A stretch of 36,165 nucleotides of DNA from Nostoc sp. FACHB-280 (GTDB lineage: Bacteria; Cyanobacteriota; Cyanobacteriia; Cyanobacteriales; Nostocaceae). Within the stretch, counting starts at the first letter, position 1; each line of letters starts with the position of its first letter. Positions 8,816 through 21,745 of the stretch are shown piece after piece. The stretch lies in assembly GCF_014697615.1 (NCBI RefSeq), contig NZ_JACJSD010000060.1:1-36165 (forward strand), written 5' to 3'. The notes beneath the pieces are model-generated. The model searched no databases and was not told the origin of the DNA. It saw only the letters and a program-made list of their open reading frames with translations. The position numbers and the translations under genes are program-made.

Positions 8816-8908
8816 ATTTATAAACATTAGATAGCAATAGAATTTTAACTCTGTAACATATCACCTGCTGTATAATTTAGGCGGATAAAAGTTTATGATA
8901 GGTAGAAT

Positions 8909-9040
8909 ATTCGGTTTTGGTGGGGATCAGCCGCCAAAGGTAAGGGGGAAAGTTCGGTGCAAATCCGGCGCTGTCCCGCAACTGTGAAGGAAAGGTCAAA
9001 GGTTTAAAAGCCACTTTCCCAGTCAGAATGCCCGCCGAAT
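8909..9040 (+). ncRNA. Cobalamin (B12) riboswitch
   Basis: The B12-box hallmark is present: GGTGCAAATCCGGCGCTGTC followed by CCGCAACTGTGA (8957-8986), with AGTCAGAATGCCCGCC (9020-9035) at the 3' side. The closing helix is ATTCGG (8909-8914) with CCGAAT (9035-9040). It ends 35 bases before the DUF1636 start codon, so adenosylcobalamin probably lowers expression of that gene and cobK. Confidence 0.93.
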
Positions 9041-9075
9041 TATAAAATTAAGTCCATTACATCTGCGAGGTACGG

Positions 9076-15131: not shown

Positions 15132-15770
15132 TCACAAACATAAAGACTGCACATGCAAATCTTTGAGGGTGATTGTGAAATTATGCTGCTCTTGTGTAGC
15201 AATAAATGAAACGATCGCTTCACAAGTCACTGCCACAGTTAACATCACCAAGTTTCGTGCCAGTGGATAGTCACAGATATCATCATTCACGTCGGAAGGT
15301 ACGCGATAAACGTCATTCCAAATGATTTCTGCATAATCAGCAGCTAACCCAGCATGAATACAAGGAATGCTAAATTGATCAGCATAATCTTTCACCGCTT
15401 GGCGTGACACACTGTTGTCAAAAACATCAACAATTAGCTGACTATCTTTAAGTAATTGATGGGTATTTTCTGATGTCAATTCTTTAGTTTTAGCATCAAC
15501 TTTCGTACCAACTGCCCGATATAAATTATTAGCCAAAATTTTCACTTTGAATGCACCAACATCAGCACGGTAGTAAGGTTGAGTGGAAAGATTATGTTCC
15601 TCAATGCGATCGCAATCAATCACCGTCAGTTTATCAAAACCAGACCGAGCCAAATTTTCCGCAATGTTAGCGCCTAATGCACCTGCGCCACAAATTGTTA
15701 CAGGATAATTTTTCAACTTTGCCATAACAGCATTGCTGCGGTAAAGCTGTTCGTGAAAAAATATGCTCAT
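15132..15770 (-). CDS. ThiF/E1-like adenylyltransferase (PRTRC-type)
   Basis: This 212-residue E1-superfamily protein would adenylate the C-terminal glycine of a ubiquitin-like or sulfur-carrier protein. Seen: nucleotide loop G28-A-G30-A-L-G33, D52 and D54 in VIDCDRIEEHNLSTQ, N60, K75, and D118-N119 with R123. Possible catalytic cysteines are C137 (IPCIHAGL) and C166 (DDICDYPLARN). There are no CxxC zinc motifs, unlike ThiF/MoeB. Closest in style to the ThiF proteins of PRTRC cassettes. I start at ATG 15770, with GGAG 10-12 bases upstream; the longer frame adds a hydrophobic low-complexity stretch. It lies 113 bases behind the 15884-16714 gene. The likely partner is the 66-residue Gly-ended protein at 21146-21346 on the same strand. 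Confidence 0.82.
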   Translation of the reverse strand: MSIFFHEQLYRSNAVMAKLKNYPVTICGAGALGANIAENLARSGFDKLTVIDCDRIEEHNLSTQPYYRADVGAFKVKILANNLYRAVGTKVDAKTKELTSENTHQLLKDSQLIVDVFDNSVSRQAVKDYADQFSIPCIHAGLAADYAEIIWNDVYRVPSDVNDDICDYPLARNLVMLTVAVTCEAIVSFIATQEQHNFTITLKDLHVQSLCL

Positions 15771-15883
15771 TATTGCTTTGCTCCAAGTTAAAAGTAAAAA
15801 ATGAAAAGGCAAAAGTAATAAGTAAAAATAAATATGAATCACTAAAATTATTCTCTTTTTACTTTTAACTTTTTACTTTTGAC

Positions 15884-16714
15884 TTATGATTGTTGTTCCA
15901 TAACAGCGACTAAAGATTGCAAATCAAAATCGCGATCGCGTCCACTCAGACAAATACCAGAACTAATAACCGTCAAATCAGATTTTGCGATCGCACTACT
16001 GTGACGCACACCATCCGCAGTTGTCCAATCGACTGTCCAGTAATCACCACGATCATGAAATTGGTTTAATTCACCACCACCCATCTGCAAAGCTTTTTTC
16101 AATCGCTTTTCATCTTGTTTGGTTTGATCAAAACCCTCAATCCGCTTAGTTGCTAATTCATACACAGTGCGAATTTCTGGAGTCAAATCTTTAAACTGCA
16201 ATTCCTCTACGGGAATCAGTCGCTTCACAGCAGATTGCAGAGTTTCCACAATTATCGGATCTGTACGGCGATCAATATCCTCAAACCAGCACGATTGTCC
16301 ATTCCAACGAGCGATAATTTGCTCAAATACTTTAGCCTCAGTTACTAAATGTACTGCGATCGGCTTTACTACCTGTAACCGTTGACGCACATCTACTTCA
16401 TTCACCGGATATGCTAACCAAGTTTTTCCCTGTAATTGATGTGCTAACCGCAACCTGATTTGAGGAAAATGTTGCAGATATTCTCCAATTTGGGGTAAGT
16501 CGGCTTCTTCAATAACCTTTGCTGTCTTTGTATCCACAGGCTGAAAAATACCCCAACCTTCAAATTTACTCGGCTTTGGTGTGAAGGTATAGACCATCCC
16601 CGCTACCTTTGTGCGAACTCGCCCACCTTTGACACAAGGCGCGAGAAATTCACTAGTAAATAACTCAGCTTCTGCACTAGCAATTTGGTTAATTAGCTTA
16701 CGTATGTTAGTCAT
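15884..16714 (-). CDS. Conserved protein of unknown function, partner of the E1-like gene
   Basis: I recognise no domain in this 276-residue protein. Visible features are an N-terminal segment FLAPCVKGGRVRTKVAGMVY that could be a small RNA/protein-binding barrel, the aromatic motifs FEGWGIFQPVD and KTWLAYPVN, a basic helix near 195-212, and a C-terminus DLTVISSGICLSGRDRDFDL that looks strongly constrained. Cysteines are at about 27, 143 and 255; C255 in SGICLSG is the best candidate for a reactive residue if this protein acts as a conjugating (E2-like) component, but no E2 motif is certain. It is the gene between element A and the ThiF gene on the same strand, so it is probably co-transcribed with both. 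Confidence 0.7.
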   Translation of the reverse strand: MTNIRKLINQIASAEAELFTSEFLAPCVKGGRVRTKVAGMVYTFTPKPSKFEGWGIFQPVDTKTAKVIEEADLPQIGEYLQHFPQIRLRLAHQLQGKTWLAYPVNEVDVRQRLQVVKPIAVHLVTEAKVFEQIIARWNGQSCWFEDIDRRTDPIIVETLQSAVKRLIPVEELQFKDLTPEIRTVYELATKRIEGFDQTKQDEKRLKKALQMGGGELNQFHDRGDYWTVDWTTADGVRHSSAIAKSDLTVISSGICLSGRDRDFDLQSLVAVMEQQS

Positions 16715-16795: not shown

Positions 16796-17003
16796 CCCGC
16801 GTGCAAGTTGATAGAGCATTGCGTTTTCTCAGTTACTAGAGGGACTCCACTGGTGAGTTATTACACACTCTTTAAAAGATGGCTACTTTCAAGCCAACTT
16901 CCCAGGTTCTTCGCACTCCCCGTTCACAAACGCCCACTGCATTTGACAGTGTTACTTTTCCTCTCGTACTAGTATGTAGGCTCCAAGAGTCGGGTCACGC
17001 TGG
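16796..17003 (-). ncRNA. Y-RNA-like element A with 23S rRNA sarcin-ricin and GTPase-centre modules
   Basis: Reading the minus strand, a lower stem is formed by 16996-17003 and 16796-16803 (CCAGCGTG with CACGCGGG). It is followed by the internal-loop signature CCCGAC on the 5' side and CAACTTG on the 3' side, then an upper stem GAGC/GCTC (16980-16983 with 16814-16817). Inside, 16959-16972 reads CTAGTACGAGAGGA, identical to the universal sarcin-ricin loop of 23S rRNA. Positions 16850-16905 read as the L11-binding GTPase-associated centre: GTTGGCTTGAAAGTAGCC (helix 43) and AAAGAGTGTGTAATAACTC (helix 44), closed by CTGG/CCAG. Relative to the E. coli sequence as I remember it, the closing helix and a helix-44 pair are changed on both strands, so pairing is kept. 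About 208 nt, non-coding; on the same strand as the Ro-like gene. Confidence 0.82.
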
Positions 17004-17186
17004 ATTTATAATACATTATACTACAAAAGTTCCCATAGATGGCAAGAAAGTTTTGTAGTATAGGCTAGTCATCTGAATATCAGTCATCCATATCATCAGC
17101 TTGGGTTAATGTTGATGCAAATAAAATCCTAGAAAGTACAATATAAATGTATTATGATTCTTTTGACAAACAAAGTGATAACCAAT

Positions 17187-17432
17187 ATGACCCTCGAACA
17201 AATACTGGATAAATTGCAAGAATTAAATGCAGATGAACAAGAAAAAGTTTTAGCATTTATTGATTCACTTGAAAGCCAAAAGCATCAAATAAAACATGGG
17301 TCTAAGTTAGGTAAAAAATTAAGAGCAATTCGTCAAGAAATTATTGATTCTGGTCTTCCTTTGTTAACTGCGAAAGAAGCAGATATAGAGAAAGCAGAAC
17401 GTCGGGGTGGTTATGGAGAAGACCTGAGATGA
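17187..17432 (+). CDS. Antitoxin (DUF2281-like) of a PIN-toxin pair
   Basis: This 81-residue protein starts MTLEQILDKLQELNADEQEKV, a form typical of small cyanobacterial antitoxins with a helical N-terminus and a charged tail (KAERRGGYGEDLR). Its ATGA overlap with the PIN-domain gene shows translational coupling. I start at the ATG at 17187; an in-frame ATG at 17154 would add 11 hydrophobic residues untypical of the family. It should neutralise the toxin and repress the operon. It lies on the strand opposite to the Ro-like system, between element A and the vWA gene. Confidence 0.78.
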   Translation: MTLEQILDKLQELNADEQEKVLAFIDSLESQKHQIKHGSKLGKKLRAIRQEIIDSGLPLLTAKEADIEKAERRGGYGEDLR

Positions 17433-17833
17433 TTCGTACTTTTATTGATGCTGGTGTTTTAATTTATGCTGCTCGTTCTCAAGGAGATATAGCTGAGAAA
17501 GCTTTACAAATTTTGGAGGATGAAAACCGAGAATTTGCTTCTAGTATTTTTCTGAAGTTAGAAGTATTGCCGAAAGCAATTTATAATCAGCAAAAAACTG
17601 AAGTTAAGTTTTATGAAGCCTTTTTTGATGAAGTTTCTTATTGGGCAAATGATATAAATTCAATTATTGAGATAGCTTATGAAGAATCAAGTAAATTTGG
17701 CGTGGGGGCAATGGACGCTTTACATATTGCGTCCGCTATATCTGTAGGAGCAACGGAATTTGTTACTAATGAAAAACTAGGAAAATCTATTCATCGTACT
17801 CAAAGCATTAAAATGATTTCTATTCATTCATAA
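17429..17833 (+). CDS. PIN-domain (VapC-like) ribonuclease toxin
   Basis: This 134-residue PIN nuclease has acidic residues D7 (TFIDAGVLIY), E45 (FLKLEVLPKA), D96 (GAMDALHIASA) and E115 (FVTNEKLGKS, where Asp is more usual). VapC-type toxins cut structured RNA such as initiator or other tRNAs, and in some cases the sarcin-ricin loop of 23S rRNA. This is notable because the adjacent element A carries a sarcin-ricin-loop copy and other elements carry tRNA mimics. Start ATG overlaps the antitoxin stop (ATGA). Base composition is AT-rich, as usual for mobile toxin-antitoxin pairs. Confidence 0.85.
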   Translation: MIRTFIDAGVLIYAARSQGDIAEKALQILEDENREFASSIFLKLEVLPKAIYNQQKTEVKFYEAFFDEVSYWANDINSIIEIAYEESSKFGVGAMDALHIASAISVGATEFVTNEKLGKSIHRTQSIKMISIHS

Positions 17834-17986: not shown

Positions 17987-19444
<1,458 letters not shown>

Positions 19445-19462: not shown

Positions 19463-19485
19463 CGCGGGGTGATATTGTCACCGCG
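19463..19485 (-). promoter_or_regulatory. Leader hairpin of the Ro-like gene, competing with element F
   Basis: GGTGA (19468-19472) pairs with TCACC (19478-19482), extended by CGC/GCG. The 5' arm (on the minus strand) shares bases 19481-19485 with the lower stem of element F, so the two structures exclude each other. It lies 40-60 bases before the start codon, where such a switch could control translation. Speculative. Confidence 0.35.
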
Positions 19486-19713
19486 CAAGTTTTAGAGGTT
19501 GTTTGAAAAGTGGTTGGTTGTGATTATTAACATTTCTTGATCCCCCCTATCCCCCCTTAAAAAGGGGGGAAATTCTTCCAGTCCCCCTTTTTAAGGGGGA
19601 TTTAGGGGGATCTAAAATTATTTAATACACCACCAGAGACTTTTCAAACATTCTCTTAGAAGCATTGGTGTAACTGATTGAGAGTTATGTAAGCTTCTGC
19701 GATCGGGGCGCGG
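19481..19713 (-). ncRNA. Degenerate Y-RNA-like element F, split by a MITE, in the Ro-like gene leader
   Basis: The 5' strand at 19686-19713 reads CCGCGCCCCGATCGCAGAAGC followed by TTACATA, matching the start of elements B and E. The 3' strand at 19481-19492 reads AAAACTTGCGCGG. CCGCGC pairs with GCGCGG, and AGAAGC pairs with GCTTCT (19659-19664). A 149-bp palindromic insert (19501-19649) interrupts it. The module is much shorter than in the other elements and may be decayed. Confidence 0.5.
19501..19649. mobile_element. 149-bp palindromic MITE
   Basis: Perfect 11-bp terminal inverted repeats, GTTTGAAAAGT (19501-19511) and ACTTTTCAAAC (19639-19649), flank a core of GATCCCCCC and CCCCTTAAAAAGGGGG type palindromes. 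The core resembles that of the element at 35166-35332. No coding capacity. No clear target duplication. Confidence 0.75.
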
Positions 19714-19785: not shown

Positions 19786-19945
<160 letters not shown>

Positions 19946-19951
19946 AAAATT

Positions 19952-20738
<787 letters not shown>

Positions 20739-20798
20739 TGAACTCACCTCTCTATGATTGAATTAATGTTTTAGTTAAATACAATTTCAATTATTGGA

Positions 20799-20938
20799 AT
20801 TCCGCACAAGTTAGCAAAGCAGTTTTAACAATTGCCTTTACAATTTTGGCTACGCTCCCATTAGCGGGAGCGACAGGAATCGAACCTGTATATCCATTTC
20901 TGGATAGTGTGTAGGCTTTACAAGTTAGGGTGCGGAAT
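20799..20938 (-). ncRNA. Y-RNA-like element C with a circularly permuted tRNA
   Basis: The lower stem ATTCCGCAC (20930-20938) with GTGCGGAAT (20799-20807) is 9 bp and perfect. The internal loop is CCTAACTT and TAACTT. The upper stem GTAAAGC/GCTTTGC (20915-20921, 20814-20820) has one G-U. The module runs 3' half first: T-arm ACAGG-TTCGATT-CCTGT, acceptor strand CGCTCCC (20866-20872), loop GCTAAT, acceptor strand GGGAGCG (20853-20859), TA, then D-arm GCC...GGC. The acceptor stem is thus closed and the tRNA is opened at the anticodon, where the Y-like stem attaches. This is like bacterial YrlA RNAs, whose module mimics tRNA. The GGGAGCGTAGCCAA start resembles Cys/Gln-type tRNA. 140 nt. Confidence 0.82.
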
Positions 20939-20951
20939 AAAGTTTAAATAA

Positions 20952-21134
20952 TTCCGTGCGAGTTCAAAAAGCTTGTTACAACTACGGCCGTTCTTACCAA
21001 ATATTGGCAGTGGACACGCACGCTAAATCTGCGAGAGACTTAGAAATCATGCTTCGCTAGTTCGATCGCTCGAATTTTACTACCTTAGAGCCGTTATCAA
21101 TGTGTATGTATGCTTGATGTGTCAGGACACGGAA
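20952..21134 (-). ncRNA. Y-RNA-like element D with permuted 23S rRNA H69-H71 mimic
   Basis: The lower stem TTCCGTG (21128-21134) with CACGGAA (20952-20958) is perfect. The 5' loop strand is TCCTGAC and the 3' strand GAACTCG; the upper stem is AAGC/GCTT (21112-21115, 20969-20972). On the minus strand the early part (21072-21097) reads ATAACGGC then TCTAAGGTAGTAAAATTC, matching 23S rRNA ATAACGGTCCTAAGGTAGCG region (H69 3' strand to H71). The late part (20971-21000) reads GGTAAGAACGGCCGTAGTTG, matching the preceding 23S segment GGTAA..ACGG(C)GGCCGTAACT. The order is permuted: helix 69 stem GGCCGT/ACGGCT (20984-20989, 21089-21094) is kept and the Y-like stem takes the place of its loop. 183 nt. 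Confidence 0.78.
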
Positions 21135-21145
21135 AATTAGGGTCT

Positions 21146-21591
<446 letters not shown>

Positions 21592-21661
21592 AAGCTTGTA
21601 AAAATTAATAGAGATTATGCTTTTCTTTTGCCTTTTAACTTTTTCCTTTTACCTTATTGGT

Positions 21662-21745
21662 TAGTGGAGCCGTCGGGAATCGAACCCGACTCCTGCAACC
21701 GTCCGTTTGTTGGTTTCGGAGCAGTCGAACGCCAATCGCGGCCCC
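21662..21745 (-). ncRNA. 84-nt tmRNA-like tRNA mimic at the head of the array
   Basis: Acceptor GGGGCCG (21739-21745) pairs with CGGCTCC (one G-U), and the T-arm is TCGGG-TTCGATT-CCCGA. After the 5' acceptor, CGATTGGCGTTCGAC matches the D-loop consensus of tmRNA (UGG..UUCGAC) rather than a tRNA D-arm. A short hairpin (CTGC/GCAG with inner AACC/GGTT) stands where tmRNA has helix P2 and its mRNA-like domain. No tag reading frame or pseudoknots are present. The 3' end reads A-CTA instead of A-CCA. It is probably a tmRNA-domain mimic, not a working tmRNA. Confidence 0.6.

Follow-up and report, generated by a model that had tools for sequence, protein, structure and literature searches.

The known bacterial Y RNAs number one or a few per genome, carry tRNA-like heads and have an unsettled purpose. 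We analysed a 36,165-nucleotide (nt) stretch of DNA from Nostoc sp. FACHB-280 (contig NZ_JACJSD010000060.1; hereafter the window, meaning the whole of that stretch), in which a Y-type stem recurs with heads resembling tRNAs and two separate centres of 23S ribosomal RNA (rRNA). The members of this module all lie on the minus strand, in the order predicted RNA element E, a 66-amino-acid (aa) protein, elements D and C, a 239-aa protein, elements B and F, a 478-aa protein, element A, a 276-aa protein and a ThiF/E1-like adenylyltransferase. Element A (16797..17004), recognized by alignment, covariation and its match to 23S rRNA, is a single 208-nt unit read from 17004 to 16797, with the Y-type stem and a head that combines the sarcin-ricin loop and the GTPase-associated centre (GAC) of 23S rRNA, both on the minus strand.

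A sequence-only reading of the window had taken one segment of element A for the universal sarcin-ricin core and another for the helix 43/44 region, and both assignments stand. The core, CTAGTACGAGAGGA (16959..16972, bases 33-46 of the unit), is identical to E. coli 23S 2652-2665 at 14 of 14 positions; the mimic of helices 42-44, the L11/GTPase-associated centre (16843..16902, unit bases 103-162), has 80% identity to E. coli 23S 1055-1114 (E 3e-11, against a 7.8-kb rRNA database). Element A shares with 23S rRNA the sequence and secondary structure of both sites, and differs from it in fusing them without the intervening 1500 nt, in reversed order and with linking helices of its own. When aligned to the organism's own 23S (L098), as had been suggested, the GAC part has diverged to 77% identity over 57 nt; element A is therefore not recently derived from that gene, and falls short of the near identity to the host 23S expected of a 23S gene or fragment. 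The genome (7.6 Mb) holds a single copy. An Rfam scan of the window at gathering scores did not pick up element A; in a copy from Kovacikia, the GAC part passes the gathering score for large-subunit rRNA (55.1 vs 50). As the fold of the single sequence is unremarkable (z -0.27, with a different fold predicted), the structure was resolved by alignment alone and the evidence for it is comparative. A scan for promoters and terminators near element A returned three promoter-like sites (1.6 expected) and two terminator-like sites (0.4 expected), the latter both within the element's own helices.

The comparative sample was built on the neighbouring 276-aa protein, which was searched in one genome per species and has a relative at 179 places; the best 80, all titled cyanobacteria, were read. 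Half of them (40 of 80) carry element A in full length, in genera that include Nostoc, Calothrix, Tolypothrix, Pantanalinema, Scytolyngbya, Microcoleus, Oscillatoria and Argonema, and plasmid-borne copies occur in Dolichospermum (88.7%, Nostocales) and Kovacikia (83.9%, Leptolyngbyales). A search within the genus gave a match in 8 of 11 genomes, the host genome included, one of the eight being partial. The alignment (A2) comprises 43 of 49 full-length copies, two of its rows being duplicates and L005, L017, L018, L029, L033 and L039 being left out; truncated copies in L008, L020, L024, L034, L047, L059 and L066, and a second copy in L045, stand outside it.

The consensus structure of the 43 copies has 49 pairs, with 97.6% of cells paired as against 32-54% in slid controls. 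Both sides have changed in 18 pairs, compared with 6.0 in shuffles, and none of 500 shuffles came as high. Among the 41 distinct sequences, A-U and G-C each account for 20 at one pair of helix 43, and G-C and U-A each for 19 at one pair of a linking helix. Compensatory changes had been proposed for the closing helix (CTGG/CCAG) and for helix 44: the former is borne out by both-side changes in 2 of 4 pairs, whereas helix 44 as predicted (2 pairs) has no both-side change in the alignment, and it is helix 43 that covaries. The equivalents of E. coli 2654-2664 in the sarcin-ricin loop are invariant in all 43 aligned copies, as are the GAC equivalents of 1057, 1069, 1084, 1085, 1088 and 1094, and that of 1095 is A in 42. 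The equivalent of 1067 is A in 34 copies and G in 9, including the copy in this window. The identity of element A as a recent 23S fragment is rejected on the grounds of covariation and of the limited identity to the host 23S: far from being a freshly rearranged piece without conservation in related genomes, it is widespread, covarying and diverged. As judged by sequence comparison, element A is under selection on its structure, as originally proposed, and is not 23S debris.

The sequence-only reading had treated element A as a single element; the element is real, but it has siblings: the module, which also encodes a Ro60-like protein, holds a whole family of elements that mimic tRNA or rRNA. 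Its stem recurs in the window in four further elements that have both stem strands (19790-21554, minus strand), and in a split fifth, F. A scan of 93 sequences for the stem pattern detected the 5' part 292 times, in 237 cases with a 3' partner inside the length limit; the other 55 were set aside. The Y-RNA-like stem suspected at the outset is a terminal stem shared by these 237 elements, and it covaries over them, many being orthologues and hence not independent: one pair is U-A in 99, C-G in 59 and G-C in 55, and is formed in 226 elements where shuffling predicts 117. Seven stem pairs were examined, of which three lie clearly and two slightly above shuffles, and two that are nearly constant do not exceed them at all. 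The internal loop is near-invariant at CC in its 5' strand and at ACUU in its 3' strand. According to our own pattern rules, the 237 heads are divided into 80 tRNA bodies in normal order, 48 copies of A, 41 circularly permuted tRNAs (for instance in L086, with an anticodon-like hairpin, T arm, acceptor hairpin and D arm), 23 copies of D, 5 of F, 19 heads with a T arm only and 21 without T arm. The tRNA heads carry varied anticodons. The tRNA bodies of elements B, C and E pass at both ends into the common stem, and do not have the free acceptor end of an ordinary tRNA. Among the 292 stem-element sequences, E. coli 16S and 5S rRNA gave no match at E 0.01, and the family matches past the 3' end of the host 23S correspond to A+T-rich spacer.

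The second rRNA-like member, element D (20953..21133, minus strand), carries a head corresponding to 23S helices 69-71, in which the stem takes the place of the helix-69 loop; the identity is 85% over 26 nt both to E. coli 23S 1916-1941 and to the host 23S. In an alignment of all 23 copies (A6; 3' end set by hand for L016, L037, L048 and L054, L016 pairing poorly there), 97.1% of cells are paired and 15 pairs have changed on both sides, against 4.9 in shuffles; of five covariation measures one, further pair types, is not above shuffles. The remaining elements, likewise on the minus strand, have the stem with other heads. Element E (21436..21554) has a tRNA-like body (Rfam tRNA, 48.1 bits); element C (20801..20937) a circularly permuted tRNA head formed of a hairpin, a T arm, an acceptor hairpin and a D-arm-like part; and element B (19790..19941) a tRNA-like head with D arm and anticodon arm, its T arm being disturbed in this genome. 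Element F (19482..19712), 58 nt before the Ro60-like gene, is split by an inserted inverted-repeat sequence resembling a miniature inverted-repeat transposable element, at 19533-19618. In relatives (L010:6597-6741, L057:2379-2521, L059:4362-4504, L060:4125-4266 and L088:6815-6927), the F head lies upstream of the Ro60-like gene and comprises further arms and a GCGUAU..AUACGC hairpin that is conserved. No match was found between the F head and rRNA, the comparison yielding nothing better than E 0.37.

The 478-aa protein (17987..19423, minus strand) has a helical N-terminal part followed by a VWA domain and is predicted to adopt the Ro60 fold. Its AlphaFold model, of modest confidence (pLDDT 67.6), has the helical-repeat ring and VWA arrangement of Ro60, and its 12 best structure matches in the PDB are all Ro60; the Pfam TROVE family (PF05731) did not match it up to E 5, and a profile search against PDB sequences gave no match. 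The residues D301, S303, G304 and S305 of a DxSGS motif, which we take to be the metal-site motif of VWA domains, are invariant in 32 aligned sequences. The 66-aa protein (21146..21346, minus strand) is a candidate ubiquitin-like protein, a proposal that its C-terminal VYG, present in 16 of 16 aligned sequences, would fit; a few homologues are named as TGS domain, and a PDB profile search gave no convincing match. The adenylyltransferase (15132..15842, minus strand; ThiF 4.7e-28) also matches the PADLOC E1-E2 model over part of the profile (2.5e-17). The conserved 276-aa protein (15884..16714, minus strand) has 1232 homologues, with 58-90% identity across the rows used and Nostoc and Aulosira as nearest named relatives; no family was found for it, and its poor model (pLDDT 57.6) gave no fold match at E <= 0.001. 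The less conserved 239-aa protein (19952..20671, minus strand) likewise found no family in profile searches.

RNA elements and protein genes of the module occur together. In the 80 loci, some of which end at contig ends, the 478-aa gene is present in 58, ThiF in 72, the 66-aa gene in 49 and the 239-aa gene in 41, and the 66-aa gene is always accompanied by the 478-aa gene (49 of 49 loci). Where the 478-aa gene is present, stem elements are found in 55 of 58 loci; where it is absent, in 5 of 22. Of 386 cyanobacterial genomes, 30 have a match to the 478-aa protein (two of them weak VWA-only or fragmentary, several others broken or partial), 27 have element A (some short), and 23 have both (Fisher 5e-27, kinship ignored); element A is alone in 4, among them a genome with a strong copy (G066), and the Ro60-like gene is alone in 7. 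Comparison of sequences establishes a shared covarying stem with rRNA and tRNA heads, its synteny and its co-occurrence with the Ro60-like gene.

A separate canonical TROVE/Ro60 gene lies elsewhere in the host genome (L011, G000:C37:71105-71710). Canonical TROVE as an obligate partner of the module was rejected, since such a gene occurs in 8 of 21 module-bearing genomes and in 8 of 20 that lack the module. This test took 21 of the 30 genomes with a match, the nine left out being the host genome (which has TROVE) and broken, partial or weak ones, and all 20 genomes without the module came from the host's own family; within that family the canonical gene is found in 7 of 8 genomes with the module against the same 8 of 20, and a partnership may exist there. 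A VapBC-like pair with a PIN-domain protein (plus strand, 17154-17833) is located between element A and the Ro60-like gene; it was rejected as a module part, having matches in just 7 of 80 loci, and the adjacency of a PIN-type toxin to a sarcin-ricin mimic is suggestive, not consistent. Farther off in the window, a cobalamin riboswitch is predicted at 8895-9053 (52.6 bits).

Directly upstream of the module, long tRNA arrays are found in L057, L059 and L060, as well as on the Kovacikia plasmid; the element A of L096 lies within such an array. The scan took in 29 of the 80 loci, and most of the others among these 29 are without a long array. The Kovacikia minuta plasmid array (L010:2252-5772) has stem elements among and behind its tRNAs, and L010 contains 30 matches to the tRNA model, one inside a stem element. 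In the window itself, decayed tRNA-like pieces, one of them tmRNA-like (46.2 bits), occupy 21370-21440 and 21560-21745, and may be what is left of the tRNA array found ahead of the module in some relatives.

GAC-like sequences were also encountered in large phages, as mostly unannotated stretches of about 200-350 nt that hold the GAC core, in which helix 44 seems to carry an insertion. Records were fetched for Aeromonas 4_4572, Acinetobacter ME3, Pseudomonas pf16, Astolliot and Xanthomonas XacN1, and Milchi and UNO-G1W1 were also among the matches listed; the sequences lie at L014:3986-4300, L013:3969-4330, L133:561-800, L134:556-785 and L135:576-945. tRNA genes are found within about 1.3 kb in four of the five fetched records. 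Rfam gave no match over the GAC-like sequence in the five records, and no TROVE gene was matched in the two phages tested. The phage sequence is possibly an independent rRNA mimic.

What might such an array do? That the system is a ribonucleoprotein of the Ro60/Y RNA kind we regard as very probable. The statement that element A belongs to a conserved array of predicted Y-type RNAs, likely bound by the Ro60-like protein through the stem, with heads that serve as decoys or sentinels, is more or less evenly balanced, and for decoy or sentinel action as the main role we would stop slightly short of an even chance. The elements would be transcribed as separate RNAs, whose shared stem would bind the Ro60-like ring while the heads project as mimics; the heads might then engage nucleases or modifying enzymes that target translation, and a response could run through the candidate ubiquitin-like protein and the E1-like enzyme. 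Reported toxin cut sites include the sarcin-ricin loop, helix/loop 70 and tRNAs (in the accessible part of PMC5408214), and a helix-69 nuclease was reported in 2026 (PMC13189344, likewise in part). The tRNA-like part of a Y RNA may inhibit an anticodon nuclease, as suggested in the available portion of PMC7790460. In Anabaena sp. PCC 7120, the tRNA operon is induced by translation antibiotics, and so is rtcB; deletion of the operon left the drug resistance of a trcR mutant unchanged (PMC10272220, seen in part). We favour decoys or sentinels because the heads match the kinds of sites that toxins cut, because tRNA arrays adjoin the module and because that Anabaena operon is antibiotic-induced. 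Two observations weigh against a simple bait. The D element of this window is without UUCCU, the MazF-mt6 cut site, and we know of no citable nuclease that cuts the GAC. A decoy for an antibiotic (thiostrepton) is weakened by the A/G variation at the equivalent of 1067, which we take to be the thiostrepton site. A more elaborate version, in which a Ro60-based sentinel presents a panel of vulnerable translation sites on Y RNAs, catches or reports RNA-damaging enzymes, signals through a ubiquitin-like route and is in effect an immune or repair system, is put forward only tentatively.

The best-placed alternative, which we rank below decoys or sentinels and think rather unlikely, is that the RNAs are quality-control adaptors comparable to YrlA in the Rsr-PNPase complex, their heads recruiting a nuclease, a modification enzyme or a ribosomal factor to the Ro60-like ring for degradation or repair of damaged tRNA and 23S rRNA. 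Y RNA tethers PNPase to Rsr, and the tRNA-like part of YrlA is modified by tRNA enzymes (PMC8394870 and PMC7790460, as far as the accessible text goes), and the predicted Ro60 fold and the tRNA heads fit such a role directly; by itself, it does not explain why distinct 23S centres should be copied with an invariant sarcin-ricin loop, nor why the anticodons of the tRNA heads vary. Titration of translation factors, with element A binding L11, EF-G or EF-Tu and lowering translation under stress, is a still weaker candidate: one RNA does hold both halves of the factor-binding site, with the GAC and sarcin-ricin positions listed above invariant, yet a single gene copy would have to compete with abundant ribosomes, and the tRNA and helix 69-71 siblings and the Ro60-like partner would go unexplained. 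Weaker again, element A could be a cis-acting leader, a sensor in the 5' untranslated region of the 276-aa and ThiF genes. It ends 75-219 nt before the 276-aa gene in 23 of 40 loci; in the other 17, however, the distance is 366 to 9351 nt, and in L096 the element sits between tRNA-Gly and tRNA-Arg, so that a 5' leader as the sole reading was rejected on a distance range of 75 to 9351 nt. Functionless decay of 23S and tRNA sequence, for which truncated copies and the disturbed elements B and F of the window might speak, has almost no probability left in view of the synteny across distant genera and the divergence from the host 23S, and is refuted for intact copies by covariation.

That one stem in a conserved array bears many tRNAs as well as two distinct 23S centres suggests that the heads exist to imitate translation RNAs, and it opens the purpose of Y RNAs to direct testing. 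Among known systems, the trn operon of Anabaena sp. PCC 7120 resembles the present loci as a long cyanobacterial tRNA array, which several modules directly follow; it differs in that the part of PMC10272220 available to us covers the tRNA genes and the repressor TrcR, without Y-type or rRNA-like elements. With Ro60/Rsr (TROVE) proteins, the 478-aa protein shares the predicted helical part and VWA domain with DxSGS, and its best structure matches; it differs in lacking a Pfam TROVE match, and its gene lies within an array of RNA elements that also includes the gene for an E1-like enzyme, whereas canonical TROVE genes stand separately. With YrlA (RF02553), the elements share a terminal stem in which the two RNA ends pair, a conserved internal loop, in the 3' strand an ACUUG that the consensus printed by Rfam also shows (AcUuG), a Ro60-type partner (here predicted) and, in 41 of 237 elements, a tRNA-like head with T arm, acceptor hairpin and D arm, which the 23S-headed members, A included, do not have. 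The gathering score of 69 bits is missed, with 24.0 for element C of the window, a weak match, 32.7 in L010 and 26.6 in L060; for this reason the RNAs are not filed as YrlA, just as the protein is not filed as Pfam TROVE for want of a match. The many members per locus, the tRNAs in normal order with anticodon arms and the 23S heads have no counterpart in those portions of the YrlA descriptions that were accessible. No rRNA-mimicking Y RNA appeared in the literature searched (titles and abstract openings, for some searches those of part of the papers matched, with subscription literature mostly outside its scope), and within that literature element A would be the first, a natural isolated RNA joining the GTPase centre to the sarcin-ricin loop.
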